A model generated the notes under the pieces. It saw only the letters and a program-made list of their open reading frames with translations, did not search any database and was not told where the DNA came from. A stretch of 64,000 nucleotides of DNA from a bacterium (GTDB taxonomy: Bacteria > Pseudomonadota > Alphaproteobacteria > Caulobacterales > Hyphomonadaceae), in contig WGML01000004.1 in assembly GCA_016125045.1 (NCBI GenBank), positions 1 to 64,000 on the forward strand. Reading direction: 5' to 3'. The translations under genes and the position numbers were made by a program. Shown in pieces: positions 27,094-45,402 of this stretch (position 1 is its first letter; each line of letters begins with the position of its first letter).

Positions 27094-27723
27094 ATGGCGC
27101 TGCGCGGTGAGGCTTTGGCGGATGCGGACGCAGATGGGGCGCCGGAGCCGCGGCGATCCCGGTGGGGCCGCAATGGCTGCGACTGGCTGGCGGCGGAGCT
27201 GCAGTACGCGCTCGGGATCGATGCGGACGAGATCGCGGTCCGGATGGGTGCGAGGCGGCAATGGGTGATCCAGCGGGCGCGCCTTGACGGGTGGCGCCGC
27301 GACCCCACTCCTGCCGACTGGACGCGGATGGTGACCGGCGTGGCGCGCGCGGCGGCGGCCCGGGAACTGGTCGGCGGCGCGGCGGCGGACCAGCGGGCGC
27401 GGAGCATCGAACGGCTCTTGCGGCTGGCGGCGCCGGAGGCGCTGGCGGGCGCCGGACGCCGGGGTTCGGCGGGTGTGGGAAAAAAGGGATCAGGTGATGC
27501 AGGGTCGCGCGACATGAGGGACCGACACGATGACGACGGGGTCGACTGGTGCGCCGAACTCCGGCGCCGGCTCGAAGTGCTGGTGGGTCCCCTCAAACTG
27601 GATGCCGGACCCGAACGGGGTGGCGACGGCGTTCTTCAAGAGCATAAATGCCGACCTCCTGGAGGGGCGGAAGGCGTGCTTCCGGTGGAGCCTGTGGCGA
27701 AGACCCGCCCAGACGGCGCCTGA
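27094..27723 (+). CDS. Small-terminase-like protein (GTA gp1 position), C-terminus uncertain
   Basis: 209 aa as read. Residues ~28-75 hold a helix-turn-helix-like stretch (LQYALGIDADEIAVRMGARRQWVIQRARLDGWRRD) matching proteins found immediately upstream of TerL in alphaproteobacterial GTA clusters. The frame continues ~190 bp into the TerL coding region, which is unnatural; the part after ~27480 (MRDRHDDDG...) is low-complexity and probably not original. The real product may have ended near 27480. DNA recognition for packaging is inferred from position only. Confidence 0.5.
   Translation: MALRGEALADADADGAPEPRRSRWGRNGCDWLAAELQYALGIDADEIAVRMGARRQWVIQRARLDGWRRDPTPADWTRMVTGVARAAAARELVGGAAADQRARSIERLLRLAAPEALAGAGRRGSAGVGKKGSGDAGSRDMRDRHDDDGVDWCAELRRRLEVLVGPLKLDAGPERGGDGVLQEHKCRPPGGAEGVLPVEPVAKTRPDGA
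27490..27645 (-). CDS. Possible small minus-strand gene overlapping gp1/TerL
   Basis: 51 codons on the strand opposite to the GTA genes. The ATG at 27645 is preceded by a perfect AGGAGG (27655-27660, nine bases away), the best ribosome site in this part of the window. The predicted peptide is balanced in composition, with a ...FGSGIQFEGTHQHF... core and a hydrophobic VDPVVIVSVPHV end, unlike the TrpTrp/Cys-rich sequence read for TerL on the other strand. No family recognised. It shares wobble positions with TerL, so codon bias cannot decide. Confidence 0.35.
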   Translation of the reverse strand: MLLKNAVATPFGSGIQFEGTHQHFEPAPEFGAPVDPVVIVSVPHVARPCIT

Positions 27724-28936
27724 GGGCGACTGGCGGTGCTGGCTGTTCATGGGTGGACGCGGCGCGGGCAAGACGCGTGCGGGGGCCGAATGGCTGCGCG
27801 AACAGGTGGTCGAGGGCGGCGCCCGGCGGGTCGCGCTGGTCGCCCCGACACTCGGCGATGCGCGGGAGGTGATGATCGAGGGGGTGTCCGGCGTCCGGCG
27901 CATCTCGCCGCCTGAGGAGCGGCCGGTCTATGAGCCGTCGCGCCGACGGCTGGTGTGGCCGAACGGCGCAGAGGGGTTCGTGTTCTCGGCGGAGGACCCG
28001 GATTCGCTTCGCGGCCCGCAGTTCGACGCGGCCTGGTGCGACGAAATCGCGGCATGGACGAGGGGGCGGGCGACCTTCGACACGCTGATGCTGGCGTTGC
28101 GGATCGGCGAGCGTCCGCGCTGTCTGCTGACGACGACACCGCGCTCGACCGAGCTTGTGCGGGGGCTGGTCGGCGAGGCGGGGCGAGCGGGGTCCGGCGT
28201 GGTGATGACGCGATCCGGCACGCGGGACAATTCACGATGGCTCGCGCCCGGTTTCGTCGACTCGATGGAGTCGGCCTATGCGGGCACGCGGCTCGCCCGC
28301 CAGGAGCTCGAGGGCGAGCTGATCGAGGATCCACCGGGGGCGTTGTGGACGCGGGAGATGATCGAGGCCGCGCGGGGCCGCCTCTCGGGCGAGACCGCCG
28401 GCGACGACGCCTGGGCGCGCGTGGTGGTGGCGGTCGATCCGCCGGCGGGGGTCGGGCCGGGGGCGGACGCCTGCGGGATCATCGCGGCGGCGCTTGGCGC
28501 GGATGGACGGGTGAATGTGCTGGCGGACGCCAGCGTGCGCGGCCTGCGTCCGCTCGACTGGGCGCGACGGGTGATCGAGGTCGCCGATGCATGGGGCGCG
28601 GGCGAGATCGCGGCGGAGTCCAATCAGGGCGGCGAGATGGTGCGCGATGTGCTGCGCGCGGCGGGATGCGGCGCCGGAGTGAGGGTGCGGCTCGTGCGGG
28701 CGGTGAAGTCGAAATACGATCGGGCGTCGCCGGTGTCGGCGTACTACAGCGCCGGCCGGGTGGTTCATCGCGGGGTGTTCCGCGAGCTGGAGGACGAGAT
28801 GTGCGCGTTTGGCGCCTCGGGGCTTGAAGCGCCGGCGCCGCGCGGGGCGAGCCCCGACCGGGTCGATGCGCTGGTCTGGGCGGTCACGCTGCTGCTGGAC
28901 GCTCCGGGCGCGCCGCCGAGAGTGAGGGAGCTTTGA
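27530..28936 (+). CDS. GTA terminase large subunit (gp2)
   Basis: 468 aa. Phage packaging motor with an N-terminal ATPase (Walker A GGRGAGKTRAG at ~76, Walker B-like FDAAWCDEIAAW, and TTTPRST coupling motif) and a C-terminal RNase H-like nuclease (VVAVDPPAG, AAESNQGGEM, SPDRVDALVWAV). From FRWSLWRRPAQTAPEGDW onward it is a normal GTA TerL; the first ~50 residues are not and may be spurious, since this DNA overlaps the small minus-strand frame. All catalytic blocks are intact. Confidence 0.9.
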   Translation: MTTGSTGAPNSGAGSKCWWVPSNWMPDPNGVATAFFKSINADLLEGRKACFRWSLWRRPAQTAPEGDWRCWLFMGGRGAGKTRAGAEWLREQVVEGGARRVALVAPTLGDAREVMIEGVSGVRRISPPEERPVYEPSRRRLVWPNGAEGFVFSAEDPDSLRGPQFDAAWCDEIAAWTRGRATFDTLMLALRIGERPRCLLTTTPRSTELVRGLVGEAGRAGSGVVMTRSGTRDNSRWLAPGFVDSMESAYAGTRLARQELEGELIEDPPGALWTREMIEAARGRLSGETAGDDAWARVVVAVDPPAGVGPGADACGIIAAALGADGRVNVLADASVRGLRPLDWARRVIEVADAWGAGEIAAESNQGGEMVRDVLRAAGCGAGVRVRLVRAVKSKYDRASPVSAYYSAGRVVHRGVFRELEDEMCAFGASGLEAPAPRGASPDRVDALVWAVTLLLDAPGAPPRVREL

Positions 28937-29955: not shown

Positions 29956-30086
29956 CGGAACGTCCCCCGGAGCGACGGGCCCTGCGGCCCGGCGGCGACA
30001 GTGCCTCGCCCGGGGCGTGAGTGGCAAGGCGGATGTGCGCGCAAGGCGGACGGAGCCGGCGCAAGGCAGCAGGGAGCAGACAAGGC

Positions 30087-31247
30087 ATGTGGAGCCCATT
30101 CAGGACCGCGTCGAAGCGACGGGAGCCGGCGCTCGGTGAGCGAAAGTCAGGCGGTGCGCTCGCGGCGCTGGCGGGATTGCCGGCGGCGCACTGGTCCGGC
30201 GCTGGGGTGCTCGCCCGCGAGGGATTTGAGCGCAATGCGGTCGGCTATCGCTGCGTGCGGATGATCGCGGAGACGGCGGCGAGCCTGCCGATGCGCCCGA
30301 CGGGTGCGGCAGGGGGTGGCGGCGCGCCGGGCGACAGGCTCGCGCGGTTGGTCGAGCGGCCGAACGCGTTCGAGGCGGGCGCGGACCTCATGGAGACGTT
30401 CTACGGCCACCTTCTGATCCATGGCGAAGCCTATCTTGAGGCGGTGCGGATCGACGATGAGGTGCGCGAGCTGCATGTGCTTCGGCCGGACCGGATGCGC
30501 GTGGTGAAGGGGCCAAGAGGCTGGCCCGCAGGATGGGAGCACCGGGTCGAGGGCCGCGTGCGGCGGCTTTTGCCGGACGGGGACGGGTTTTCGCCCGTGC
30601 TGCAGCTGAAGCTGTTTCATCCGTCGGACGATTATCGCGGCCATGCGCCGCTCGAGGCGGCGGCGCGGGCGGTCGACGTTCACAATTCGGCGGGGGCGTG
30701 GGCCAAGGCGCTGATCGACAACGCCGCCCGGCCCTCGGGTGCGCTGATCTATGGCGCGGGCGAGGCGCTGACGGAGGATCAGTATCAGCGGCTGAAGGAC
30801 GAGTTGGAGCAGAGCCATCAGGGCGCGGCGAACGCGGGACGGCCGCTGCTGCTGGAAGGCGGGCTCGACTGGAAGCCGATGAGCCTCACACCCGCGGAAA
30901 TGGACTTCATCGAGGCGCGCAACGCCGCGGCGCGGGAAATCGCGCTCGCCTTCGGGACGCCGCCGATGCTGCTCGGGATTCCGGGGGATGCGACCTATGC
31001 CAACTATCGGGAGGCGAACGCGGCCTTCTGGCGGCTGACGGTGCTGCCGCTCGCGCAGAAGGCGGGGCGCGCGCTGTCGCGCTGGCTGGGCGACCGGCTC
31101 GGCGGAGGCGTGGCGCCGGACGTCGAACACGCGCCGGCCTTTCAGGACGAACGCCAGGCGCAGTGGGCGCGCGTGGATGCGGCGAGTTTCCTCAGCGTCG
31201 AGGAGAAGCGCCGTCTGGTCGGGATCGGGGACGCGGATGCTGGATGA
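30087..31247 (+). CDS. GTA portal protein (gp3)
   Basis: 386 aa. HK97-type phage portal (Phage_portal family): NAVGYRCVRMIAETAASLP near the N-terminus, LLIHGEAYLEAV, HVLRPDRMRVV, DYRGHAPLEAAARAVD, MDFIEARNAAAREIALAFGTPPMLLGIPGDATYANYREAN. These are the standard blocks of RcGTA gp3. It forms the dodecameric DNA gate at the capsid vertex. ATG 30087 (MWSPFRTASK) is the first start giving a GTA-like N-terminus. Overlaps the next gene by 11 bp. Confidence 0.92.
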   Translation: MWSPFRTASKRREPALGERKSGGALAALAGLPAAHWSGAGVLAREGFERNAVGYRCVRMIAETAASLPMRPTGAAGGGGAPGDRLARLVERPNAFEAGADLMETFYGHLLIHGEAYLEAVRIDDEVRELHVLRPDRMRVVKGPRGWPAGWEHRVEGRVRRLLPDGDGFSPVLQLKLFHPSDDYRGHAPLEAAARAVDVHNSAGAWAKALIDNAARPSGALIYGAGEALTEDQYQRLKDELEQSHQGAANAGRPLLLEGGLDWKPMSLTPAEMDFIEARNAAAREIALAFGTPPMLLGIPGDATYANYREANAAFWRLTVLPLAQKAGRALSRWLGDRLGGGVAPDVEHAPAFQDERQAQWARVDAASFLSVEEKRRLVGIGDADAG

Positions 31248-31488: not shown

Positions 31489-31722
31489 GGTGAGCGTGAC
31501 CGGCCCCGGGCCTGCGTTGCCGAGGCGTCACGGGCTTCACGCAAGTGTGTGCGTTCGCCGGGCGTCCCGCCGGGGCCGGGGTACGTAACAGTCAGGCCGG
31601 CAAGCCGCGGGACACATGCGGAATCGGCGCTCGCGGGCCCCTGCAAGGCGGGACGGCGGGTCCGCGCTCCCAGAGACCAGCGGCGACGGCCACAGCCCGC
31701 CGCGTACCCAAAGAGGATGAAC

Positions 31723-32582: not shown

Positions 32583-33107
32583 ATGCGGCGATCGGTGATG
32601 ATCGAGGGATATGCGTCGCTGTTCGGGGTCGAGGACCTCGCCGGCGATGTGGTGCGGGCTGGGGCGTTCACGCGGGCGCTGCGGTCCGGTCGGGAGATCG
32701 GGATGCTGCTCGCCCATGTCGGCGGACGCACGGCCGGGCGCTGGGCCGCGATCCGGGAGGACGGGCGCGGGCTTTATGTGCGGGGGCTCGTCGAGGATGC
32801 GACGCCGGCGGGGGCGCTTGCGCTCGACCTGATCGCTGGCGACCGGCTCGACGGGCTGTCGATCGGCTTCGTGGCGCGGGACTGGTCGCCGCGCAGCGCG
32901 GCGGGCGGCGGGGTCGGGCGGGAGCTTCGCGATATCGACCTGCGCGAGATCTCGCTCGTTGCGGCGCCGATGCTGCCCGCGGCCAGGTTCCGGGCGGTTG
33001 CGGGACATGCGGGCGCGCGGCCGGCGGAGAAGCGGTCAGCGGCGAGGAAGGCGGCGGTCGAAAATTTTCGTTACACACGGGTCGCAAACGCCGACGGAGC
33101 GCGTTAA
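32583..33107 (+). CDS. GTA prohead protease (gp4)
   Basis: 174 aa. HK97-family capsid maturation protease: EGYASLFGVEDLAGDVVRAGAF at the start, His in MLLAHVGGRTAGRW, and Ser in LDGLSIGFVARDW as the catalytic pair, then DLREISLVAAPML. GGAGGGGCGG immediately precedes the ATG. Because a strong terminator ends only 15 bp before, expression must come from read-through or a promoter within the hairpin region. The last ~15 residues run past the usual end. Confidence 0.9.
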   Translation: MRRSVMIEGYASLFGVEDLAGDVVRAGAFTRALRSGREIGMLLAHVGGRTAGRWAAIREDGRGLYVRGLVEDATPAGALALDLIAGDRLDGLSIGFVARDWSPRSAAGGGVGRELRDIDLREISLVAAPMLPAARFRAVAGHAGARPAEKRSAARKAAVENFRYTRVANADGAR

Positions 33108-33225
33108 GCTTTCCGCTGGAGGCGATGTATCCGGTTCGTGTTCGGACGAAGCGCGCCGCCCGTGGGATGAGAAACGCGACAGCCGCGGAGCCGATCGAAG
33201 GCTCCCGGCGCAAAGGAGGATCTGG

Positions 33226-34329
33226 ATGAGCACGACACATCGTATTGGCGGAACGCTGGGCTTTGACGGAACGCGGGGTTTTGGTGGAACGCGAGCTGGC
33301 CGGTGGATGGCCGGAGCCGCGCTCGCCCTCGTCATGGGTGCGGCGTCGGCCGGAGCAGCCGCCGCGCAGACCGCGCCCGGCTACACGATGCCGCGCACCG
33401 CCTGGGGCGCGCCGGATCTTCAGGGCACCTGGAACAATACCTCGATCACCAACCTGACCCGCCCGCGCGGTGTGACCGATCTCGTCGTCGACGAGGCGAC
33501 CGCGCGCGACATCGTGCGCAAGAATCCGCTGACCGTGCTGTCGGCCGAGGACAACGCCCGCCAGGATGATCCGCTCGACACCTCGCTTCTCGACGACAAG
33601 AACGCCGACCGCGGCTACAATGCTTTCTGGATCGACCATGGCAGCCGGCTCGCCGATGTGAAGGGCGAGCTGAGGACGTCATGGATCGTCGAGCCGGCGA
33701 ACGGCCAAATCCCGTTCAAGCAGGGCGCGCGGCGCAATCGCGGCGGCTTCTCGCCGACAAATTTCGACGGGCCGGAGACGCGTCCGCTCGCCGAACGCTG
33801 CCTGATGAGCTTCTCGGGGTCAGCAGGCCCGGTGATGCTGAACAGCATGTACAACAACTCGTTCGACATCGTGCAGTCGCCGGATGCGGTGGTGATCCTC
33901 GTGGAGATGAACCACGATGCGCGCATCATCCGGCTTGGCGACAAGCACGGCCCGTCGGAAATCCCGAAGTGGGCGGGCGACTCCATCGGCTGGTATGAGG
34001 GCGACACGCTGGTGGTCGAGACCCGCAACCCGCACCCGTTGCAGGGCGCGCTGATCTCCGATCAGGGCAAGGTGACGGAGCGGTTCACCCGGTGGTCGGA
34101 CAGCCAGATCCTCTATGAGTTCACGGTCGACGATCCGACGCTCTACACGCAGGCCTGGAAGGGCGAGATGGCCCTGAACGCCCAGGCCGAGCCGCTCTAC
34201 GAATATGCCTGCCATGAAGGAAACTACTCCTTCGAGGGCATTCTCGGCGGCGCGCGTGAGCTTGAGTCCCGCGGGATCAAGCCGTCGCTCGGGCCCGGGA
34301 TTTTCGCCGGGATCGATATTCCCGAGTGA
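33226..34329 (+). CDS. Secreted protein of an uncharacterised family
   Basis: 367 aa. A long N-region and signal peptide ending AAAAQT (~48), then a family I recognise only as widespread secreted hypotheticals: APDLQGTWNNTS, YNAFWIDHGSRLADVKGELRTSWIVEP, ERCLMSFSGSAGPVM, YNNSFDIVQSPDAVVILVEMNHDARII, EGDTLVVETRNPHP, KVTERFTRWSDSQILYEFTVDDP, YEYACHEGNYSFEGIL. Function unknown. AAAGGAGGA six bases upstream fixes the ATG at 33226. Lies between GTA protease and capsid with its own terminator. Confidence 0.85.
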   Translation: MSTTHRIGGTLGFDGTRGFGGTRAGRWMAGAALALVMGAASAGAAAAQTAPGYTMPRTAWGAPDLQGTWNNTSITNLTRPRGVTDLVVDEATARDIVRKNPLTVLSAEDNARQDDPLDTSLLDDKNADRGYNAFWIDHGSRLADVKGELRTSWIVEPANGQIPFKQGARRNRGGFSPTNFDGPETRPLAERCLMSFSGSAGPVMLNSMYNNSFDIVQSPDAVVILVEMNHDARIIRLGDKHGPSEIPKWAGDSIGWYEGDTLVVETRNPHPLQGALISDQGKVTERFTRWSDSQILYEFTVDDPTLYTQAWKGEMALNAQAEPLYEYACHEGNYSFEGILGGARELESRGIKPSLGPGIFAGIDIPE

Positions 34330-34420: not shown

Positions 34421-34518
34421 CCTTGCCACGAATTCCAGCCTTCGCCCGGTCGTCCGCTCGCCGCGACCGGATCGCGACCCGTTGCGGCGATGCGTCAGTA
34501 AAGGGACGAAATGCAACC

Positions 34519-35730
34519 ATGACGATTGAAACCAAGATGACCGATCCGCGAACCGCCGACGAGATGCAGGCGGCGTTCGCGGCGCTGAAGGCGGCCGACG
34601 CGGAACGACTGGCGGAGATCGAGAAGCGCGGCGCGGCCGATCCGCTGATCGAGGCGCAGCTGGCCCGGATCGACCGGCAGCTGAGCCAGCACCGGGCGGC
34701 GCTCGACCGCATGGCGCTCGCGCAGGCGCGGCCCGCGATCGGCGATGACCGACGCGAGGGGGACCCTGAACACAAGTCCGCCTGGGGCGCATATCTGCGC
34801 AAGGGCGATGACAGCGGCCTTGCCCGGCTCGACCTGAAGGCGTTGACGCAAGGCACCGAAGCGCAGGGCGGGTATGTCGCGCCGCCGGAACTCGACCGGC
34901 TGATCGAGGCGCGGCTGATGCAGGCCTCGCCGATGCGCCAGATCGCGACGGTACGGCAGACGTCCGCCACGGTGTTCCGCAAGCCGGTGGGGCTCGGCGC
35001 GGCGGCGGCCTGGGCGGCGGAGACGGGCGGGAGAACCGAGACGGCGGCGCCGACGCTCGATCTGCTCGAGTTTCCCGCGGCGGAGCTTTACGCCATGCCG
35101 GCGGCGACGCAGACCCTGCTCGACGACGCCTACGCCGACATCGATGAATGGCTCGCCGACGAGGTTGAGGGGGCGTTCGCGGCCCAGGAATCGGCGGCGT
35201 TCATCAGCGGCGACGGGGTGAACAAGCCGAAGGGCGTGCTCGCGTCGACCATCGTGGCGGAGGCGAGCCACAGCTGGGGCAAGCTCGGCTATGTGGCGTC
35301 GGGCGCGGCGGGCGCGTTCGCGGCGTCTGATCCGGCCGACCGGCTGATCGATCTCGTCTATGCGGTGAAGCCGCAATTCCGGGCGAATGCGCGTTTCGTG
35401 ATGAACCGGCGCACCGTGGCGGAGGTGCGCAAGCTCAAGGACGGACAGGGGCAGTATATCTGGAGCCCGGGCGGCGCCAACGAGCCGGCGACGCTTCTGG
35501 GGTATCCGGTGAATGAGATCGAGGACATGCCGGACATCGCCGCGAACGCCCATGCGATCGCCTTCGGGGATTTCAGGCGGGGTTATCTGATCGTGGACCG
35601 GCAGGGCGCACGGGTGCTGCGCGATCCCTACTCGGCCAAGCCCTACGTGCTGTTCTACACGACCAAGCGCGTGGGCGGCGGCGTGCAGCATTTCGATGCG
35701 ATCAAGCTGATGAAGTTCGCCGAGAGCTGA
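34519..35730 (+). CDS. GTA major capsid protein (gp5)
   Basis: 403 aa. HK97 fold: a helical scaffold-like N-terminal domain (~1-95) normally removed by gp4, then the mature domain from about LKALTQGTEAQGGYVAPPELDRLI, with SPMRQIATVR, ELYAMPAATQTLLDDAYADIDEWL, FISGDGVNKPKGVL, NRRTVAEVRKLKDGQGQYIW, LLGYPVNEIEDMPDI and the C-terminal KRVGGGVQHFDAIKLMKF. All standard GTA capsid blocks are present and uninterrupted. Confidence 0.94.
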   Translation: MTIETKMTDPRTADEMQAAFAALKAADAERLAEIEKRGAADPLIEAQLARIDRQLSQHRAALDRMALAQARPAIGDDRREGDPEHKSAWGAYLRKGDDSGLARLDLKALTQGTEAQGGYVAPPELDRLIEARLMQASPMRQIATVRQTSATVFRKPVGLGAAAAWAAETGGRTETAAPTLDLLEFPAAELYAMPAATQTLLDDAYADIDEWLADEVEGAFAAQESAAFISGDGVNKPKGVLASTIVAEASHSWGKLGYVASGAAGAFAASDPADRLIDLVYAVKPQFRANARFVMNRRTVAEVRKLKDGQGQYIWSPGGANEPATLLGYPVNEIEDMPDIAANAHAIAFGDFRRGYLIVDRQGARVLRDPYSAKPYVLFYTTKRVGGGVQHFDAIKLMKFAES

Positions 35731-35861: not shown

Positions 35862-36644
35862 TCAGCGCGGCGCCATGCGGATGGCGCCGTCGAGGCGCAC
35901 GCACTCGCCGTTGAAGTATCCGTTGCGGATCATCTCCATGGCGAGGGAGGCGAATTCATCCGGCACGCCGAGGCGTTTGGGATAGGGAACCGAGGCGCCG
36001 AGGGCGTCGCGGACATTCTGCGGCGCGCCGGCGAGAAGCGGCGTGTCGAAGATGCCGGGCATGATGGTGTTGACGCGGATCGCCTCGCCGGAGAGGTCGC
36101 GGGCGATCGGCAGGGTCATGCCGAGCACCCCGCCCTTGGACGCCGAATAGGCGGCCTGGCCGATCTGTCCGTCCTGCGCGGCGACCGAGGCGGTGTTGAC
36201 GATCGCGCCGCGGTCGCCGTCCGGCAGAGGAGGCAGCGTCAGCATGCCGGCGGCGGACTTCGCGATGCAGCGGAACGTGCCGACGAGGTTGATCTGGATG
36301 ATGAGGTCGAACTGGTTGAGCGGGAAATGCTTGATCTCGCCCGTGTCCTTGGCGCGGGAGGCGGTCTTGGCGGCGTTGCCGGTGCCCGCGCAGTTGACGA
36401 GGATGCGCTCCTGACCGTTCGCGGCCCGGGCCTTCGCGAAGCCCGCGTCGACGGACGCCTCGTCGGTGACGTTGACCTTGCAGAAAACGGAGCCGGTCGC
36501 GGCGGCGGTCTTTTCGCCGGTCGCGTCGTTCATGTCGAAGATCGCCACCTTGACGCCGGCGGCGCGCAGGGCGCGGACGGTCGCCTCGCCGAGGCCGGAG
36601 GCGCCTCCGGTCACAATCGCGGAAACGGAGGAATCGAGCTTCAT
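35862..36644 (-). CDS. SDR oxidoreductase (HSD10 / 3-hydroxyacyl-CoA dehydrogenase type II-like)
   Basis: 260 aa. IVTGGASGLGEATVRAL coenzyme motif, IFDMND (Asp for NAD), VNCAG, Ser in TASVAAQDG, and YSASKGG. The layout MKLDSSVSAIVTGGASGLG...FPLNQFDLIIQINLVGTF...GFVPYPKRLG-type ending (SVPYPKRLGVPDEF) matches the HSD10-like branch acting on 3-hydroxyacyl-CoA or 2-methyl-3-hydroxybutyryl-CoA. Substrate is inferred. Minus strand, inside the GTA cluster between capsid and gp6. Confidence 0.88.
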   Translation of the reverse strand: MKLDSSVSAIVTGGASGLGEATVRALRAAGVKVAIFDMNDATGEKTAAATGSVFCKVNVTDEASVDAGFAKARAANGQERILVNCAGTGNAAKTASRAKDTGEIKHFPLNQFDLIIQINLVGTFRCIAKSAAGMLTLPPLPDGDRGAIVNTASVAAQDGQIGQAAYSASKGGVLGMTLPIARDLSGEAIRVNTIMPGIFDTPLLAGAPQNVRDALGASVPYPKRLGVPDEFASLAMEMIRNGYFNGECVRLDGAIRMAPR

Positions 36645-36819
36645 CTTCGGTGAGCCTCTCTCAAGCTTCGGGGTTCCGGATCGAACGTCCGGTCTGGATG
36701 CATCTGATAGTCCCGCCCCGGCCCCTCCGACAACCACCCACATGACCGGCGCGGGCGGCGCCGAGCCTTGAAGGGCTGGCGGTCGCGCGGGTCTTCACTC
36801 TTGTTCAGGACAGATACTC

Positions 36820-37413
36820 ATGATGGTAACGACGCTGATCGCGGCGGCGGCGGAGCCTTTGTCGCTCGCCGAAGCCAAAGCCTATCTGCGCATCGGATAT
36901 GACGACGAGGACGAGCTGGTCGGCCAGCTCGCCGGCGCGGCGCGGGCGCGGATCGAGGCGGCGGCGGGCGTCGCGCTGATCAACCGGACGCTGCGCTGGC
37001 GGATCGACGCCTGGCCGAAGGGCGCGGTCGAGCAGCGGGCGGTGCGGCTGCCGGTGCGTCCGGCGGCGCAACTCGTGGCGGTGCGGGTGACGGCGGGCGG
37101 GACGCAGGGCGACGTGACCGAACGGTTCACGCTCGATGGCGGCCGAGCGGCGCGGATCGTGTGGACCTCGGGGGCGTTTCCCTGGACGGATGCACGGGCC
37201 AGTGCACCGGCGGGTCCACAGGCGGGCGGCGTCGAAATCGACTGGGTCGCGGGGTTCGGGCCGGCGCCTGGTGATGTTCCGGCCGATCTGAAGCTCGCGG
37301 TGCGGCGGCTGCTCGCCCACGCCTATCATGCAAGGGACAGCGAAACGATCGCAGGTCCGCTGCCGGTGGACGTTGCGGGGCTGATCGCTCCGTGGCGGCG
37401 GGTGCGGCTGTGA
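36820..37413 (+). CDS. GTA head-tail connector (gp6)
   Basis: 197 aa. Typical gp6: SLAEAKAYLRIGYDDEDELVGQLAGAARARIE at the N-terminus, then a beta-rich part and a C-terminal ADLKLAVRRLLAHAYHARDSE...LIAPWRRVRL, the normal family ending. It binds beneath the portal. Its TGA overlaps the GTG start of gp8; no gp7 gene lies between. Confidence 0.88.
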   Translation: MMVTTLIAAAAEPLSLAEAKAYLRIGYDDEDELVGQLAGAARARIEAAAGVALINRTLRWRIDAWPKGAVEQRAVRLPVRPAAQLVAVRVTAGGTQGDVTERFTLDGGRAARIVWTSGAFPWTDARASAPAGPQAGGVEIDWVAGFGPAPGDVPADLKLAVRRLLAHAYHARDSETIAGPLPVDVAGLIAPWRRVRL

Positions 37414-37516
37414 GCGGGGCGGAACTCGAACTTGAACGCGCGGTGCTCGCGGTGATCCGCGCGGATGCGGGCGTGAAGGTGCTGCTCGGCGACCCGGTTC
37501 GGATCGGTGCGGGCGG

Positions 37517-37542
37517 TGAACCGCCCCGGGTTTGCCGGAGGC
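37517..37542 (+). repeat. IS3 left inverted repeat
   Basis: 26-base terminal repeat, identical in inverse orientation to 38815-38840. Confidence 0.95.
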
Positions 37543-37566
37543 TCCTGATCTTGAGAGGATGGAGCT

Positions 37567-37899
37567 ATGACGGATGGAACGGGGAAGCGGCGTCGGCCGC
37601 ATTATTCAGCCGAGCTGCGCGACCGCGCGGTGAGGATGGTGAAGGAGGCGGCGCCGGATCACGGCTCGCATTGGGCGGCGATTTGTTCGGTGGCAGCGAA
37701 GATCGGGTGTTCGGCGCAGACGCTTCAGACGTGGGTCCGCAAGGCTGAGGAGATCGACGGCCGTCAGGCCGCTGAGGATCGCGCTCGGCTGAAAGTCCTG
37801 GAACGGGAGAACCGTGAACTCCGCCAAGCCAATGAGATCCTGCGGAAAGCCTCTGCGTATTTTGCGGCGGCGGAGCTCGACCGCCGGTCAAAGACATGA
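37567..37899 (+). CDS. IS3-family transposase OrfA
   Basis: 110 aa. N-terminal helix-turn-helix (YSAELRDRAVRMV...IGCSAQTLQTWVRKAE) that binds the IS ends, followed by a leucine-zipper-like helix (RLKVLERENRELRQANEILRKASAYF). Its TGA overlaps the ATG of orfB (ATGA at 37896-37899). A classic A6G slippery run is not evident, so coupling by reinitiation is as likely as a -1 frameshift. Confidence 0.93.
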   Translation: MTDGTGKRRRPHYSAELRDRAVRMVKEAAPDHGSHWAAICSVAAKIGCSAQTLQTWVRKAEEIDGRQAAEDRARLKVLERENRELRQANEILRKASAYFAAAELDRRSKT

Positions 37900-38801
37900 T
37901 CGCCTTTATCGACGATCACCGCGGGGCCTACGGGGTCGAGCCGATCTGCTGTCTGATGCAGATCGCCCCGTCGACCTATTATGACCACCTCGCCAAGCGG
38001 AAGGATCCATCCCGGCGGTCAGCGAGGGCGCAACGCGATGAGGCGCTGAAGGCGAAGATCGCCGGCATCTTCGAGGAGAACTTCGGTGTCTACGGCGCCC
38101 GGAAAGTCTGGCGGCAACTTGCCCGGGAAGGTGAGACCGTCGCTCGGTGTACGGTGGAGCGGCTGATGAAGGCGATGGGCCTGGTTGGGGCTGTACGCGG
38201 CAGGAAGCTCAGGACCACCGTACCCGACAAGGCGGCGGTCTGCCCGCTTGACAGAGTGGATCGCCAGTTCAGGGCGCCTTGCCCGAACAGGCTTTGGGTC
38301 AGCGACTTCACCTATGTCGCCACCTGGTCGGGCTTTGCCTACGTCGCGTTCGTGATCGATGTCTTCGCCCGAAGGATCGTCGGCTGGCGGGTCAGCGGCA
38401 CGGCGCACACAAGCTTCGTCCTCGACGCCCTGGAGCAGGCCCTTCATGAGCGTCGTCCCGCAAAACAGAGCGGTCTGGTGCATCACAGCGACAGGGGCAG
38501 TCAGTACGTCAGCATCAAGTACACGGAGCGCCTTGCGGATGCTGGGATCGAGCCGTCGGTCGGCAGCGTGGGGGACAGTTACGACAACGCCCTCGCCGAG
38601 ACGGTGAACGGGCTCTACAAGACCGAGCTGATCCACGCGCGCGGCCCGTGGCGCAGCCTCGAAGCCGTCGAACTCGCCACACTCGAATGGGTGGACTGGT
38701 ACAATCACCGCCGACTTCTCGGCCCGATCGGCTACATCCCGCCTGTAGAGGCCGAAGAGCGATACTTCCAAAATCAAGAAGCCTACGCCATGGTGGCGTG
38801 A
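37896..38801 (+). CDS. IS3-family transposase OrfB (DDE integrase)
   Basis: 301 aa. HTH_21-like YGARKVWRQLAREGETVARCTVERLMK, then an rve integrase core with the DDE triad in WVSDFTYVAT, VHHSDRGSQY and YDNALAETVNGLYKTE. C-terminal WVDWYNHRRLLGPIGYIPP is the usual IS3 ending. Complete and probably active. Confidence 0.95.
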   Translation: MIAFIDDHRGAYGVEPICCLMQIAPSTYYDHLAKRKDPSRRSARAQRDEALKAKIAGIFEENFGVYGARKVWRQLAREGETVARCTVERLMKAMGLVGAVRGRKLRTTVPDKAAVCPLDRVDRQFRAPCPNRLWVSDFTYVATWSGFAYVAFVIDVFARRIVGWRVSGTAHTSFVLDALEQALHERRPAKQSGLVHHSDRGSQYVSIKYTERLADAGIEPSVGSVGDSYDNALAETVNGLYKTELIHARGPWRSLEAVELATLEWVDWYNHRRLLGPIGYIPPVEAEERYFQNQEAYAMVA

Positions 38802-38814
38802 CTCAAATAAACCT

Positions 38815-38840
38815 GCCTCCGGCAAACCCGGGGCGGTTCA
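38815..38840 (-). repeat. IS3 right inverted repeat
   Basis: 26-base terminal repeat, the exact inverse of 37517-37542, followed by the CGG target duplication. Confidence 0.95.
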
Positions 38841-39158
38841 CGGCGACGGGAAGCCTGCTTTCCCGTTCATCGAAATCGTGCGGCACCAGAGTGAGGACGC
38901 CGGGGCGGCGGGGATCGAGGCGCAGCGGCACAGGATCGATCTGCGGATCGAGACGCGACCTGCGGCGAGGGATGACGCCAAGGCGGCGCTGCAGGCGGTG
39001 CGGGACGCGCTGGCGGCGGCGACGGCGGCGCCCGCGGGCTGGCGCTGCGTGCTCATGATCCCGGTGTTTGCGGATGTTCTGGAGGCGCGCGCGGGCGCGT
39101 CGTTCGCGGCGGTGCTGCGGCTTGTCGCGGTCATCGAGCGCAATGCGGAGGTGGTGCA

Positions 39159-39330
39159 ATGAGCGGGCAAAGAGGGCGCGACGTCCTCATCAGGATCGGC
39201 GATGGCGGCGCGCCGCAGAGCTTCGTCACAGCGGCGGGGATTCGCACGAAGACCTTCCGGCTGACGACCGGTTCGGCGGATGCGACGAGCTGGGAGAGCG
39301 CGGGCGGCTGGCGGGAGCTGATCGCCGGCG
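39159..39330 (+). pseudogene. GTA gp9 (major tail protein), 5' fragment
   Basis: About 57 codons: MSGQRGRDVLIRIGDGG...AGIRTKTFRLTTGSADATSWESAGGWRELIAG. This is the start of the GTA major tail tube protein, normally ~130-140 aa. It stops matching the family at a GGCGGCGGCGG tract (~39326-39337), where the sequence switches to the end of gp11 in another frame. Translation from this ATG would not stop but run on in frame into gp12, giving a 334-codon fusion. ATG overlaps the gp8 stop. Confidence 0.82.
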
Positions 39331-39528
39331 GCGGCGGTCGCTTCGGCGGTGGCGGAACTCGCCCTTGCGCGGGCCTCCGGCGTAACGGAGGCGGGCGGCG
39401 GGTCCTCGCCGGTCAATGTGATGATGACAGTCGCGCCCGGGGCGGCGTCGCGAGACGTCGCCCGGTCCGGCAATCAGATCGCAGCGCTGGTCGCGCGCGC
39501 GGTTCGGCGGGGGGCGCGGTTCACATGA
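39331..39528 (+). pseudogene. GTA gp11 (tape measure), 3' fragment
   Basis: In the frame starting at 39331: AVASAVAELALARASGV...SSPVNVMMTVAPGAASRDVARSG..IAALVARAVRRGARFT, then TGA. The final ~35 residues have the usual GTA tape-measure ending (beta strand VNV.MTV.AP.A, then a helix .QIAALVARAV.RG). Its TGA overlaps the gp12 ATG, the normal gp11/gp12 junction. It has no start of its own; an upstream TGA lies at 39319. Confidence 0.75.
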
Positions 39529-40163
39529 GCGGCTTCCATGAGGTGAGATTGCCGTTGGCGCTGGCGCTTGGCTCGAGCGGCGGCCCTCAGATCGCGGTCG
39601 AGGTGGTGCGGCTTGCGTCCGGCCGCGAGGTGCGGGTGCGGCGCTGGGCGGGATCGCTGCGGCGATGGGAGATCGGCGGCGGTGTGATGGATGTTGCGGC
39701 GGCGGAGGCGCTCGCGGGGTTCTTCGAGGCGCGGGGCGGGAAGGCGTTCGGGTTTCGCTTCCGCGACCCGGTCGATTGGCGGAGCGCTGCTTCCGGCGCG
39801 CCGGTTACGGCGCTCGACCAGCCGCTCGGCGAGGGCGACGGTGTCACGGCGGCGTTCCAGCTGGTGAAGCGGTATGGCGCCGGGGATGGGGCCGGCGACG
39901 GGGCTGGCGATCGGCCGATCCGCAAGCCGGTGGTCGGTACGGTGCGCGTTGCGATCGATGGCGTGGAGACCGCGGGCTTCCTGCTCGATTCCGGCGCCGG
40001 CGTTGTGACGTTCGACGCCGCGCCGATGGCGGGCGCGGTGCTCACGGCCGGATATGAGTTCGATACGCCGGTGCGCTTCGACATGGAGTCGCTCGACCTT
40101 GCGCTTGAGGGACCGCGGGCGATCCGCCTGGGGCCTGCGGCGATCGTCGAACTGGCGGGCTGA
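39525..40163 (+). CDS. GTA distal tail protein (gp12, DUF2460)
   Basis: 212 aa. DUF2460 pattern: MSGFHEVRLPLALALGSSGGPQ, VVRLASGREVRVRRWAGSLRRWEIGGG, LAGFFEARGGKAFGFRFRDPVDWRS, KRYG, VRVAIDGVE, TFDAAPMAGAVLTAGYEFDTPVRFD. Complete, with an Asp/Gly-rich insertion (AGDGAGDGAGDRPIRKPV). Could be made from its own ATG, or as part of a gp9-gp12 read-through. Confidence 0.92.
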   Translation: MSGFHEVRLPLALALGSSGGPQIAVEVVRLASGREVRVRRWAGSLRRWEIGGGVMDVAAAEALAGFFEARGGKAFGFRFRDPVDWRSAASGAPVTALDQPLGEGDGVTAAFQLVKRYGAGDGAGDGAGDRPIRKPVVGTVRVAIDGVETAGFLLDSGAGVVTFDAAPMAGAVLTAGYEFDTPVRFDMESLDLALEGPRAIRLGPAAIVELAG

Positions 40164-40178
40164 CAGGGAAACAACCCA

Positions 40179-41063
40179 ATGAGACGGTTATCGGATCTGC
40201 TTGCGACGCGGCTGCAGGCGGAGGTGGCGACCTTGTGCGCATGCTGGCGGTTCGAACGTCGCGACGGCGCGGTGTTCGGGGCGACGGATCATGACCGGCC
40301 GATCGACTTCGACGGCGTGCGGTTCGAGCCTGCGAACGGGATCGCGGGTGCGCGGTTTGAGCATGGCGCGACGCTCGCTCCCGGCCGGGCGGCGGGGGAA
40401 GGCGCGCTCGATCTGGCGTTTCTTGATGAGGCGGACCTCGCCGCGGGCGTCTGGGACGGGGCGCGGGTGGATGTCTGGCGCGTCGACTGGAGCGCGCCGG
40501 AACACCGGGTGCGCATCTGGTCCGGGCGGCTGTCCGAAGTGGAGCGCAGGGGGCGCAGCTTCGCCGCCGAACTCGTGAGCCTGAAGGCCGATCTGGAGAC
40601 CATGATCGGCCGCATCTACCAGCGGACATGCGATGCTGAGGTGGGCGATGAGCGGTGCGGCGTCGATCTCGGCGCGGCGGCCTTTCGCGGGACGGGCGTC
40701 GTGAGCGAGGTGTTGGCGCCGGAGCGGTTTCGCGTATCCGGGCTCGATGGATTTGCGGGCGGCTGGTTCACGCTCGGCCGCCTTGCGTGGATGTCGGGGG
40801 AGAACTCCGGGGCGGTGCACCGCATCACCCGGCATGACGCCGTGGACGGCGAAGCGGTGATCGAATTGGGGGACGCGCCGCGACATCCGGTGCGTGCGGG
40901 CGACACGTTCGCCGTGACGGCGGGATGCGATCGCCGGTTCGAGACGTGCGGGGGAAAATTCGCCAACCGGGTGAATTTCAGGGGCTTTCCGCATCTGATC
41001 GGCAATGACGCGGTGGTGCGCGGCCCGTCGCCCCATGAGCCGAAGGACGGTGGGCGGCGATGA
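40179..41063 (+). CDS. GTA hub protein (gp13, DUF2163)
   Basis: 294 aa. DUF2163: CWRFERRDGAVFGATDHDRPIDFDGVRFEPANG, DLAFLDEADLAAGVWDGARVDVWRVDW, RIYQRTCDAEVGDERCGVDL, and the C-terminal VTAGCDRRFETCGGKFANRVNFRGFPHLIGNDAV. In RcGTA the Cys pairs hold an iron-sulfur cluster in the tail hub; the same Cys pattern is here. Intact. ATGA overlap with gp14. Confidence 0.93.
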   Translation: MRRLSDLLATRLQAEVATLCACWRFERRDGAVFGATDHDRPIDFDGVRFEPANGIAGARFEHGATLAPGRAAGEGALDLAFLDEADLAAGVWDGARVDVWRVDWSAPEHRVRIWSGRLSEVERRGRSFAAELVSLKADLETMIGRIYQRTCDAEVGDERCGVDLGAAAFRGTGVVSEVLAPERFRVSGLDGFAGGWFTLGRLAWMSGENSGAVHRITRHDAVDGEAVIELGDAPRHPVRAGDTFAVTAGCDRRFETCGGKFANRVNFRGFPHLIGNDAVVRGPSPHEPKDGGRR

Positions 41064-41521
41064 GCGCTTCGGGGAGCATGGCGCCCGGCGCTTCGATGGG
41101 CGAGCGCGTGGTCGCGGCGGCGCGGCGCTGGATCGGGACTCCCTATCGCCACCAGGCGAGCCAGATGGGGGCCGGGTGCGACTGCCTCGGGCTGGTGCGC
41201 GGCGTCTGGCGCGAGGTGAAGGGCGCCGAACCGGAAGCGCCGCCGCCCTACACGCCCGACTGGGCCGAAGTGCTGGGCGAGGAGACGCTGCTGAACGCGG
41301 CGCGCCGCTGGTTGGTCGAGATCGCGGCAGGCAATGCGGCGCCGGGGGATGTGCTGCTGTTCCGCATGGCGACGGGAGCGCCGGCGAAACATGCGGGGAT
41401 CGTGTCGGCGCGCGGGCGGATCATTCACGCCTATTGGGGACGCGCTGTCTGCGAGACGCGGCTCGTGCCGTGGTGGGAGCGGCGGATCGCCGCCGCGTTC
41501 AGGTTTCCGGAGGTAGGCTGA
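41060..41521 (+). CDS. GTA NlpC/P60 cell-wall peptidase (gp14)
   Basis: 153 aa. ARRWIGTPYRHQAS, GAGCDCLGLVRGVWRE (catalytic Cys), and KHAGIVSARGRIIHAYWG (catalytic His). Cuts peptidoglycan peptides so the tail can inject DNA. Intact. Its TGA shares a base with the ATG of gp15. Confidence 0.93.
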   Translation: MSASGSMAPGASMGERVVAAARRWIGTPYRHQASQMGAGCDCLGLVRGVWREVKGAEPEAPPPYTPDWAEVLGEETLLNAARRWLVEIAAGNAAPGDVLLFRMATGAPAKHAGIVSARGRIIHAYWGRAVCETRLVPWWERRIAAAFRFPEVG

Positions 41522-44500
41522 TGGCGGAACTCGTGCTTTCAAACATCGGCGCGGCGATCGGCGCGCGCGTGCTGCCGGCCGGCGTGTCGCTGTTCGGGCG
41601 AACCATCGCAGGGGCGGCGATCGGGCGGACGATTGGCTCGATCGGCGGGGCCGCGCTCGATGCGGCGCTGGCGCCGCGACGGGTCGCGGGACCGCGCATC
41701 CGCGATCTGCATGTGATGGAAAGCCGCGAGGGGGCCGGCGTCCCGGTGGTGTTCGGGCGGATGCGGGTCGGTGGCCAGGTGATCTGGGCGGCGCGGCTGA
41801 AGGAGAGTGTCTCGCGCGGCGGCGGCAAGGGCGGGCCGCGGACGGCGGAGCGGTCCTATACGTTGAGCTTCGCGGTGGGGCTTTGCGCGGGCGAGGCGGC
41901 GCGCGTCGCGCGGGCCTGGGCCGATGGCGAGCGGCTCGATCTGTCGGAGCTGACCTGGCGGTTCTATCCGGGGAGCGAGACGCAAGCGCCCGATCCGCTG
42001 ATCGAAGCGGTGGAGGGGACGGACGCCGCGCCCGCCTATCGTGGGCTTGCCTACATCGTGTTCGAGGACATGCCCGTGGACCGGTATGGCGGCCGGTTGC
42101 CGCAGCTTTCATTCGAGGTGGTGCGCCCCACGGGAGACGGCGGCGAGCGGCTCGAATCGATGGTGCGAGGGATCAATCTGATTCCCGGATCGGGAGAGTT
42201 CTCGCTCGCGACGGACATCGTGCGCAGATCGCTCGGGCCGGGTGCGGAGGCGGAGGAAAATCGTCACGGTTTCGATCGCAGGGCCGACCTTCTGGCGTCG
42301 CTGGACGAGATGGAGGCGGCGTTCCCGAATCTGCGGCGGGTCAATCTGGTGACGGCGTGGTTCGGCGACGATCTGCGCTGCGGCGCCTGCGCGATACGGC
42401 CGGGGGTCGAGCTCAGGGGGAAGGCGACCAAGCCCTGGAGCTGGCGCGTCGGGCCTATGGAGCGGGAGACGGCCTATCTGGTGAGCCAGACCGGAGGGCG
42501 CGCCAATTACGGCGGCACACCGGCCGACCGGTCCGTGATCCAGGCGATCAGGGAGCTGAAGGCGCGGAGCTATCATGTCACGCTCTATCCGTTTCTGTTG
42601 ATGGACCTGCCCTACGGGAACGCCCGCGCCGATCCCCATGGCGGCGGCGAGCAGGCGGCGTTTCCGTGGCGGGGTCGGATCACCTGTCACCCAGCGCCGG
42701 GGCAAGTGGGATCGCCGGATGGATCGGCGGTCGCAGCGGCGGAGGTGGCGGCGTTCTTCGGATCGGCGCAGCGGGCGGATTTTCAGGTCGCGGGCGAGAC
42801 GGTCAACTGGATCGGCCCTGGCCCCTCCGGCGCGCGCGACGAGGGGTATCGGCGGTTCATCCTCCACCATGCGGCGCTGGCGCAGGCGGCTGGAGGGGTG
42901 GACGGGTTCCTCATCGGATCCGAGCTTGTGGATCTGACGCAGGTGCGGGACGCCGGCGGCGGGTTTCCGGCCGTGGCGGCGCTGCGCACGCTCGCGGGCG
43001 AGGTGAAGAGCTGGCTCGGGCCTTCGACTGAGGTGAGCTATGCGGCGGACTGGACCGAGTATGGCGCGCGCTCGCTTTCGGGCGGCGATCTCGCCTTTCC
43101 GCTCGATACGCTGTGGGCGGACCCTGCGATCGATTATGTCGGTCTCGATTGGTATCCGCCGATGGGGGACTGGCGGGAGGGGGACGGGCACGCGGATGCG
43201 GGGTTCGCCGGCCCGGATGATCCTGCCTATCTGGAGGCGGGGGTCGCGGGCGGGGAAGCGTTCGACTGGTACTATGCCGACGCGGCGGGCCGGGCGGCGC
43301 AGGCGCGGCTGCCGATCACCGACGGGGCGTATGGCGAGCCCTGGGTGTATCGCCAGAAGGATGTCCGGTCGTGGTGGTCGAACGCCCATCATTCGCGGGT
43401 CTCCGGCGTGCGCTCGGCGACGCCGACCGGCTGGATCGCCGGGATGAAGCCTGTGCGCTTCGTCGAGATGGGCTGTCCGGCGGTGGACAAGGGAGCGAAC
43501 CAGCCGAACGTGTTCTTCGATCCGAAAAGCGCCGAAAGCGCCCTGCCGCATTTCTCGTCCGGCGCGCGCGACGATCTCATCCAGCGCCGGGCGATCGAGG
43601 CGTTTCACCGCTTCTGGTCGCCGGGAGCTCCGGGCAATCCGCTGTCGGCGGTCTATGGCGGGCCGATGACGCCCGAGGACGGCGTCGCCGTGTGGGCGTG
43701 GGATGCAAGGCCCTTTCCGGCGTTTCCCTCCCGCGAGGATGTGTGGAGCGACGGGCCGAACTGGCGGCTGGGGCACTGGCTGAACGGCCGCGCCGGCGCG
43801 GCGCTCCTGCCGGATGTGGTGCGCGAGATCGGCGCGGCGGCGGGAGCGGAGATGGACGCAACTCAGGCGGACGGCCTGATCGCCGGATACGGGTTTGAGG
43901 GCGTGGCGCCCGCGAGAAGCGTGCTCGACCCGCTGTTTGCGCTGCATGGTCTCTCGGCGGTGGAGCGGGACGGACGGATCGTTGTGGGCTCGCCCGGACC
44001 GGACGCCTTCACGCCCGATCAGGGCGACTTCGTGCAGGCCGAGGGCGACCCGTCCGGGGGGCTGTCGCTGACGCGGTCGGGGATGGATGACGGCGGGAGC
44101 GGCGTGCGCCTCACCTATATCGACGCGGATGGAGACTATGCCCCGGCGACCGCTGCGTCCTTGAATGCAGGGCCGGGAGGCGCGCTGGCGCTGGACGTTC
44201 CGGTGGTGCTCGATCGGGCTGAGGCCTTGCGGCGCGCGGATCAGTTGGAGGTGCAGGCTGCGGCGGCGCGCGAGTCGGTGCGGTTCGAGCTCGGCCCGGC
44301 GGGTCATGCGGTCGAGCCGGGAGATGTGGTCGCGCTTCCGGGTGGGCGATATCTGGTCTCCGAGGTGAGCGAAGGGCTGACCGTAGAGATCGAGGCGCGC
44401 CGGATCAGCGCCTCGGGGCTTGGCGCGCGTGGCGGCGTGCGGGCGCTCGCGCCGCCTGAAGCCGAGCGGGTCGACGCGGAGGGCGAACCGCTGGTGGTGC

Positions 44501-45402
44501 TGGTCGATGCGCCCGCCCTGCCCGGAGAGGAGGACGACGCACGACCGCTCGCGTTCGCGTTCAGTGAGCCGTGGACGGGACGGGTGACGCTGAGCGGGGG
44601 GCCGGCCGCCGGCGATGCGGGGGTGCGGGCGGTGATCGAGCGGCCGGCGACGCTCGGGTCACTCGCCGCGGCGCTCGAGCCCGCAGCGGCCGATCGGTGG
44701 GTCGGCGGTGAGCTGCTGGTGGACCTGACGGCGAGCGATCTTGCAAGCCGCGACGAGGCGGCGGTGTTGTCCGGCGCCAATGCGGTGCTAGTCGAGACGG
44801 CGGCGGGATGGGAGCTGATCCGTTTCGCCGTGGCCGATCTCGTCGCCGCGGGGCGCTATCGGCTCACGCGCCTCTTGCGCGGTCAGCAGGGCGGCGACGA
44901 CGCGGCGGGCGTTGGAGCGCCGGCGGGGGCGAGGGTGGTGGTGCTGAACGGCGCCGGGGTTCGGTTGGACGCGCCCCGGCATGAGGTCGGGCGCGCGCTG
45001 GAGCTGCGTGCATGGCGGCGCCGGCCGGACGAGGCGCAGGCGTGGATGGGGCCCTTCACGCATTTCGCGGCGGCGCTGCGTGCGTGGGCGCCGGCGCATC
45101 TCAGGCTCAGCCGGCAGGGCGGCGGCGTGGCCGCATCCTGGATCCGTCGCGCGCGGTCTGGCGGGGATGCGTGGGACGCCGCCGAACCGCCGCTGGAAGG
45201 CGTGGAACGCTACCGCGTCCGGGTGCGGGCGTCAGGCGGGGGCCTGGTGCGGGAGTGGGAGACGACGGACCCGTCGACCACCTATCCGGCGAGCGAGGTG
45301 ACGGCGGACTTCCCGGGCGGGGGCGAGATCCGGCTGGAGGTCGCTATGCTCGGGCCGGATGGCGCGTTCGGCGCGGCGACAGAGGCGTTGATCGTGGTGT
45401 GA
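41521..45402 (+). CDS. GTA host-specificity / tail tip protein (gp15, megatron)
   Basis: 1,293 aa without interruption. N-terminal membrane-like glycine-rich region (LSNIGAAIGARVLPAG...GRTIGSIGGAALDAAL), then a TIM-barrel glycoside-hydrolase-like GTA domain (VSYAADWTEYGARSLSGGDLAFPLDTLWADPAIDYVGLDWYPPM, FVEMGCPAVDKGANQPNVF), a phage-tail_3 domain, and the Rcc01698-type C-terminal part (LLRGQQGGDDA). Forms the tip of the tail and binds the recipient. The start at 41521 is MAELVLSNIG. Full length despite the damage upstream. Confidence 0.93.
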   Translation: MAELVLSNIGAAIGARVLPAGVSLFGRTIAGAAIGRTIGSIGGAALDAALAPRRVAGPRIRDLHVMESREGAGVPVVFGRMRVGGQVIWAARLKESVSRGGGKGGPRTAERSYTLSFAVGLCAGEAARVARAWADGERLDLSELTWRFYPGSETQAPDPLIEAVEGTDAAPAYRGLAYIVFEDMPVDRYGGRLPQLSFEVVRPTGDGGERLESMVRGINLIPGSGEFSLATDIVRRSLGPGAEAEENRHGFDRRADLLASLDEMEAAFPNLRRVNLVTAWFGDDLRCGACAIRPGVELRGKATKPWSWRVGPMERETAYLVSQTGGRANYGGTPADRSVIQAIRELKARSYHVTLYPFLLMDLPYGNARADPHGGGEQAAFPWRGRITCHPAPGQVGSPDGSAVAAAEVAAFFGSAQRADFQVAGETVNWIGPGPSGARDEGYRRFILHHAALAQAAGGVDGFLIGSELVDLTQVRDAGGGFPAVAALRTLAGEVKSWLGPSTEVSYAADWTEYGARSLSGGDLAFPLDTLWADPAIDYVGLDWYPPMGDWREGDGHADAGFAGPDDPAYLEAGVAGGEAFDWYYADAAGRAAQARLPITDGAYGEPWVYRQKDVRSWWSNAHHSRVSGVRSATPTGWIAGMKPVRFVEMGCPAVDKGANQPNVFFDPKSAESALPHFSSGARDDLIQRRAIEAFHRFWSPGAPGNPLSAVYGGPMTPEDGVAVWAWDARPFPAFPSREDVWSDGPNWRLGHWLNGRAGAALLPDVVREIGAAAGAEMDATQADGLIAGYGFEGVAPARSVLDPLFALHGLSAVERDGRIVVGSPGPDAFTPDQGDFVQAEGDPSGGLSLTRSGMDDGGSGVRLTYIDADGDYAPATAASLNAGPGGALALDVPVVLDRAEALRRADQLEVQAAAARESVRFELGPAGHAVEPGDVVALPGGRYLVSEVSEGLTVEIEARRISASGLGARGGVRALAPPEAERVDAEGEPLVVLVDAPALPGEEDDARPLAFAFSEPWTGRVTLSGGPAAGDAGVRAVIERPATLGSLAAALEPAAADRWVGGELLVDLTASDLASRDEAAVLSGANAVLVETAAGWELIRFAVADLVAAGRYRLTRLLRGQQGGDDAAGVGAPAGARVVVLNGAGVRLDAPRHEVGRALELRAWRRRPDEAQAWMGPFTHFAAALRAWAPAHLRLSRQGGGVAASWIRRARSGGDAWDAAEPPLEGVERYRVRVRASGGGLVREWETTDPSTTYPASEVTADFPGGGEIRLEVAMLGPDGAFGAATEALIVV

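Follow-up and report, generated by a model that had tools for sequence, protein, structure and literature searches.

The window (the whole 64,000-nucleotide stretch of DNA that was analyzed) carries a collinear series of RcGTA-type structural homologues, of which gp2 to gp6 and gp12 to gp15 are recognized with Pfam models and gp8, gp9 and gp11 are present as remnants (Table 1). No other RcGTA-like head-tail cluster was found in the assembly of this genome, G000 (2.96 Mb in 13 contigs, 82.05% complete), and the portal gene of the cluster is the single portal match there. The start of gp15 was placed by eye at the ATG that overlaps the gp14 stop codon within an open reading frame (ORF) at 41005-45402. 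A gp7 profile matched three of 47 loci, and the absence of gp7 from the window is therefore uninformative. Several genes of cellular appearance stand among the GTA genes: a DUF983-like gene (below cut-off; 29602-30099, minus strand), an outer-membrane beta-barrel gene (31549-32499, plus strand), an ORF with no Pfam match (about 33220-34329, plus strand) and a short-chain dehydrogenase gene (35862-36743, minus strand).

Table 1. Features of the GTA cluster in the window, with the matches or sequence marks by which each was recognized
Feature	Position	Strand	Evidence
gp2-like large terminase, open	27530..28936	+	Pfam Terminase_6N, Terminase_6C
Portal (gp3), open	30021..31247	+	Pfam Phage_portal, 3.7e-80
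Prohead protease (gp4), open	32583..33107	+	Pfam Peptidase_S78
Major capsid protein (gp5), open	34423..35730	+	Pfam Phage_capsid, 1.7e-90
gp6 connector/adaptor, open	36820..37413	+	Pfam Phage_connect_1, 1.6e-6; relatives-only profile, E 6.7e-66
N-terminal part of gp8 (tail terminator), ahead of the IS	37398..37516	+	Relatives-only profile, 2-40 of 141 at 37398-37514
IS3-type insertion sequence within gp8	37517..38840	+	OrfA 37567-37899, OrfB 37896-38801
gp8 remainder after the IS	38841..39162	+	Relatives-only profile, 43-140 of 141 at 38848-39141
N-terminal remnant of gp9 (tail tube), with about 57-62 codons kept out of ~138	39159..39338	+	Pfam, PDB, relatives-only profile
Junction tract GGCGGCGGCGG, GGC-type, 11 nt	39327..39337	+	Sequence, codons
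gp11 (tape measure), C-terminal remnant, ~64-66 codons and stop	39328..39528	+	Relatives-only profile; sequence
gp12 (distal tail), open	39525..40163	+	Pfam DUF2460, 1.3e-62
gp13 (baseplate hub), open	40179..41063	+	Pfam Phage_phiJL001_Gp84_N, Phage_BR0599
gp14 (NlpC/P60 peptidase), open	41060..41521	+	Pfam NLPC_P60
gp15 (megatron), open	41518..45402	+	Pfam GTA_TIM 8.8e-134, Phage-tail_3, Rcc01698_C

Two lesions in the tail genes

The tail terminator gene gp8 is split by an insertion sequence (IS). Its downstream part matches Pfam Tail_completion_gp17 over positions 29-124 of 124 (E = 5.3e-12), with no match among the PHROGs and none in the PDB better than E = 0.33. IS3-type elements are marked by overlapping frames encoding first an HTH and then an rve domain, by inverted ends of the form TG...CA, and by a 3-nt target duplication. 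All of these marks are present in the window: OrfA carries HTH_Tnp_1 and OrfB rve/HTH_21, both transposase frames are open, the ends form an exact 27-nt inverted repeat (37516-37542/38815-38841) of which 26 nt lie inside the element, and the trinucleotide CGG is duplicated at 37514-37516 and 38841-38843. Across the assembly, no match other than the copy in the window covers the full element, and a search with a short IS pattern returned this copy alone; on contig C3, the first 125 nt of the element have a match of 72% identity. As a separate observation, five loci of genus g5 (L032, L033, L034, L052, L053) have, upstream of gp9, an ORF of 558-576 aa whose start is similar among them; in those loci where gp8 is also visible, the ORF stands between the two genes.

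Immediately downstream, the beginning of gp9 runs into the end of gp11. Profiles built from relatives only were run against 1243 six-frame pieces of the window of at least 20 aa, and gp9 and gp11 each gave one match, at 39156-39338 (residues 2-62 of 139, E = 3.4e-21) and at 39328-39525 (residues 61-128 of 128, E = 3.2e-13), respectively. The two matches overlap at 39328-39338 and lie in different reading frames, and the exact breakpoint cannot be placed inside the tract. The gp9 remnant, in which 39159-39335 accounts for the first ~59 residues of the protein, also matches Pfam Phage_tail_2 (positions 2-57 of 132, E = 2.8e-10) and residues 1-58 of 137 of the solved RcGTA subunit Rcc01691 (chain 6tba_5A, E = 1e-8), so that less than half of that subunit is left. 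Downstream, the gp11 stop codon TGA at 39526-39528 overlaps the gp12 ATG at 39525-39527 (ATGA). The gp9 frame stays open across the gp11 remnant and into gp12, giving a single ORF of 334 codons (39159-40163). Such openness is unremarkable, since nine of 46 relative loci also have 64 or more open codons ahead of gp12 in its frame.

These results bear out most of what the initial annotation had read at this site, namely an intact gp9 start (~57-62 codons kept, by Pfam, Rcc01691 and the relatives-only profile) that switches frame at GGCGGCGGCGG to the last ~65 codons of gp11 (~64-66 by the profile, 61-128 of 128) with the ATGA overlap to gp12, a fusion of the deletion type to which the complementary profile pieces in different frames conform, and the retention of gp12-gp15, which are all open by Pfam. 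It had also suggested a search for a separate gp9-gp11 and a comparison with the clusters of relatives. No second match to gp9 or gp11 was found in the 82.05%-complete assembly in searches at E up to 0.001 and up to 0.1, and the gp9-gp11-gp12 fusion was not seen in the 46 relative loci examined, none of which belongs to the same genus; neither lesion was met in a second genome. In all 38 distinct relative loci with gp9, the gene covers nearly the whole profile in one open frame. An exact 28-mer across the junction had no match in viral contigs, where the scans met no close relative of the cluster (best identities of 62% for gp12, 66% for the capsid protein and 39% for gp13).

Size of the deletion and the chaperones gp10 and gp10.1

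The comparison drew on genomes outside the genus of G000. A gp12 match was obtained in 63 family relatives; 35 of these were fetched, together with five genomes from the same order, and profile matching covered 46 relative loci and the window. The count of 38 distinct loci drops L052 and L053, which lie on contigs equal in length to those of L214 and L215 and have the same match coordinates as these; L133, L076, L216, L228, L229 and L230 gave no gp9 match and stand outside it.

The stretch that begins with the gp9 start and ends with the gp11 stop measures 370 nt in the window, as compared with 699-737 nt in six relative loci lacking gp10 and gp10.1 and 1228-1365 nt in nine family relatives in which the gap is filled. 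The differences correspond to a deletion of about 0.33-0.37 kb if the ancestor was chaperone-less, or of about 0.86-1.0 kb otherwise. A kilobase-scale loss of a long tape measure of the phage type was considered and rejected, as gp11 in the family loci measured is only 91-134 aa long (the 134 aa being counted from an upstream start; 124 aa from the ATG); two loci from other families encode one of 176-177 aa. The window has thus lost roughly 40-60 codons of gp11. The remnant has no match in Pfam or the PHROGs and was recognized through the relatives; the short gp11 of L052 likewise has no PHROGs match, that of L036 has a weak match to a tape-measure PHROG (E = 2.2e-4), and that of L043 matches several (best named E = 5.5e-9). 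The designation of gp11 as a tape measure is based on gene position and on these longer relatives. The model PF06791 found nothing in G000 and is probably too distant from so short a gp11 to be informative.

The chaperone genes gp10 and gp10.1 were both found in 28 of the 38 distinct loci and neither in the other ten (L032, L033, L034, L035, L046, L047 and L212-L215). One of the chaperone-less relatives is G009, which the GTA trees place nearest to the window. In 15 genomes searched in full with the Pfam models, PF11836 and PF09550 came out above cut-off in G022, G021 and G005 only, the three genomes known to have gp10/gp10.1; in G124, PF11836 matched once, away from the locus and below cut-off (21.7 bits). 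Neither model matched anywhere in G000, which is 82% complete and in which the locus itself is deleted, and gp10/gp10.1 profiles run against the window gave nothing convincing (best E = 0.13). The ten genomes of the chaperone-less loci likewise have no PF11836 or PF09550 match above cut-off genome-wide, and a portal was found in nine of them, the exception being G125 (73% complete). Both models do recognize gp10 and gp10.1 of L132 (IMG/VR 3300041409_000677), which indicates adequate sensitivity for that form. This chaperone-positive locus sits among chaperone-negative ones, grouping with G013 (support 0.975 in one tree and 94 with IQ-TREE), so that gp10/gp10.1 were either lost several times or regained by L132.

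L132 keeps its chaperones with a gp11 of about 94-100 aa, and the gp11 remnant of the window retains a segment that is missing in its chaperone-less relatives; a coupling of chaperone loss to gp11 shortening, which we considered, is therefore not clean. Between G026 and G120, both chaperone-less, dN/dS is 0.19 for gp8, 0.11 for gp9 and 0.12 for gp11 (a Nei-Gojobori type estimate from our own script, by which G015 versus G006 was saturated for gp9, gp11 and gp12), indicating that the tail genes of this pair are under purifying selection. A conserved tail module without chaperones could surprise a specialist. In the portion of the literature available to us no published report of chaperone loss in GTAs was found, which is not proof of absence.

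In the light of these figures, the initial annotation names the right kind of event and overstates its extent: it had most of the tape measure removed, where roughly 40-60 of 91-134 codons are missing, and it had expected gp10/gp10.1 in the missing part, genes that 10 of the 38 relative loci, that of the neighbor G009 included, do not have.

Phylogenetic placement and age of the damage

The grouping of the window with relatives' GTA clusters is supported in both trees, beside G009 in each, with support of 0.93 from seven concatenated proteins (FastTree; loci with fewer than 250 aligned residues left out, rooted on the Ruegeria locus L076, itself without a gp9 match) and a bootstrap of 88 from gp12-gp14 (IQ-TREE). 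Protein identities to relatives were compared between the window and G009. For gp14 the window is equal or higher in nine of nine comparisons and for gp13 higher in five of nine; it is lower for gp12 in six of nine (by up to about 3 points) and for the capsid protein in three of four (by about 1-2 points). The gp9 remnant retains 48-60% identity to the six relatives aligned. Taken together, these values for gp12-gp14, the capsid protein and the gp9 remnant give little sign of drift since the damage and favor a recent origin without strong acceleration, as far as such a comparison, which is not a formal rate test, can suggest. "Recent" is a judgment made on sequence comparison, and two observations point the other way: the terminal branch is longer for the window than for G009 (0.305 versus 0.231 in one tree; 0.34 versus 0.31 with IQ-TREE), and gp6 is less similar to relatives in six of seven comparisons, by up to 9 points (for example 52.4% versus 61.0% to G120). 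Some relaxation before or since the damage is thus possible.

Decay is also seen elsewhere in the family. Of 105 family genomes, some of them fragmentary assemblies, 64 gave a gp12 match, and whole loss of the GTA may be common. In the locus of G100 (L228), what is preserved of gp11 is its last part (profile 42-133), and gp12 is kept as far as profile position 160; apart from these, the stretch that was fetched gave a single weak match, to 37 positions of the portal (E = 8.5e-5), overlapping the gp11 remnant. This locus apparently represents the same direction of decay as the window at a later stage. Beyond gp12 position 160, L228 reads by eye as gp15-like in another frame. In G122 (L216), gp6, gp11 and gp12 are partial, gp8 is nearly full and no gp9 match was found.

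Interpretation and comparison with known systems

We consider it likely that the window holds an RcGTA-like cluster whose tail module was inactivated, probably recently, by a deletion and an IS insertion. Both lesions are read directly in the sequence, and the other structural genes examined are open. In the proposed course of events, an internal deletion would have fused gp9, at about codon 58, with the final ~65 codons of gp11, which lie in a different frame, and an IS3-type element would have inserted into gp8. The deletion probably arose by slippage during replication or by joining at short homologies in a GC-rich region, and the sequence is compatible with either. A functional GTA requires gp8, gp9 and gp11 to be intact, and in the window they are not; the IS in gp8 strengthens the conclusion that the tail is inactivated. 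According to the available text of PMC7296036, the RcGTA tail is built from a terminator hexamer (gp8), five hexamers of gp9 and a gp11 trimer filling the tube, and by these roles three tail parts are hit in the window. By analogy with that structure, the expectation of the initial annotation that no normal tail would form appears sound. Lacking tail tube, tape measure and an intact terminator, heads would presumably be unable to join a normal tail or deliver DNA, and the cluster would then be headed for loss. That all head and baseplate genes are open is also consistent with retention of the cluster for a different purpose.

The same genes can be read in other ways. The clade may pare its GTA tails stepwise, with working, chaperone-less, siphovirus-like tails in the relatives and, as the end point, a window that has shed its tail and belongs to a recent non-producer or makes a head-only particle. 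The basis for this is the existence of several lineages that lack both chaperones but otherwise have their head and tail genes, with a tape measure of ~91-101 aa, and the purifying selection in the one measurable pair; we regard it as unlikely. It is improbable that the junction is an assembly artefact, with full gp9 and gp11 genes in the true chromosome misjoined at the GC-rich tract. Its location in an 11-nt GGC tract, in an assembly of 13 contigs and 82% completeness, would suit such an error, but usual assembly word sizes are far longer than the shared tract, which counts against it, and the nearby IS in gp8 is an independent sign that the tail module is decaying.

Very improbable, in our estimate, is a supply of tail proteins from elsewhere in the genome that would leave the remnant harmless: the assembly may lack about 18% of the genome, yet the genome-wide searches found one place for gp9 and one for gp11, both at the junction, along with one gp12 and one portal. 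We give the least credence to a working 334-codon gene, a gp12 with a gp9-derived N-terminus that would serve a very short or tailless particle. The gp9 start, the shifted gp11 segment and gp12 do share one open frame, and gp12-gp15 and the head genes are open as well; however, the linking ~65 codons are out-of-frame gp11, an upstream-open gp12 frame occurs in nine of the relative loci anyway, gp8 is broken too, and the arrangement was not seen in the 46 loci examined, none of the same genus.

Inactivation of the tail module by deletion and IS insertion is the reading we retain. It is a new instance of GTA pseudogenization, a phenomenon itself already in print in the part of PMC10883770 available to us, and represents decay of an ordinary sort, in a lineage that has been little studied. 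Its value is that of a base-level example of GTA switch-off, with two separate events in tail genes and head and baseplate genes still open. If the organism is culturable, it would offer a natural tail-minus strain for testing the rise and spread of non-producers, along the lines proposed in PMC10883770 as far as seen. The chaperone-less relatives with open gp8, gp9 and gp11 also make the need for chaperones in short-tailed GTAs directly testable.

The window has the same order as RcGTA of Rhodobacter capsulatus (terminase, portal, protease, capsid, gp6, gp8, gp9, gp11-gp15), and the gp9 of a relative has a match to Rcc01691 that takes in residues 1-136 of 137 (E = 8.3e-37). It differs from RcGTA in that gp8 is split by the IS, gp9 and gp11 are remnants, gp10 and gp10.1 were not found, and cellular-looking genes lie between the GTA genes. 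The gp11 of the family is about half the length of that of RcGTA, for which the accessible part of PMC7296036 describes segments of 113, 83 and 20 residues (216 in total). The clusters of G009, G013, G026, G120, G006 and G015 resemble the window in being spread out by intervening sequence and in lacking gp10/gp10.1, but unlike the window they have gp8, gp9 and gp11 open and near full length. Pseudogenized and lost GTA clusters have been reported in multiple alphaproteobacterial lineages, which the authors suggest may be recently emerged 'cheaters' (PMC10883770, in the sections available). Those pseudogenized clusters share with the window the partial loss of an otherwise recognizable cluster, and beside them (PMC10883770, same sections) the lesions of the window, a short tail deletion and one IS, are placed at base level.
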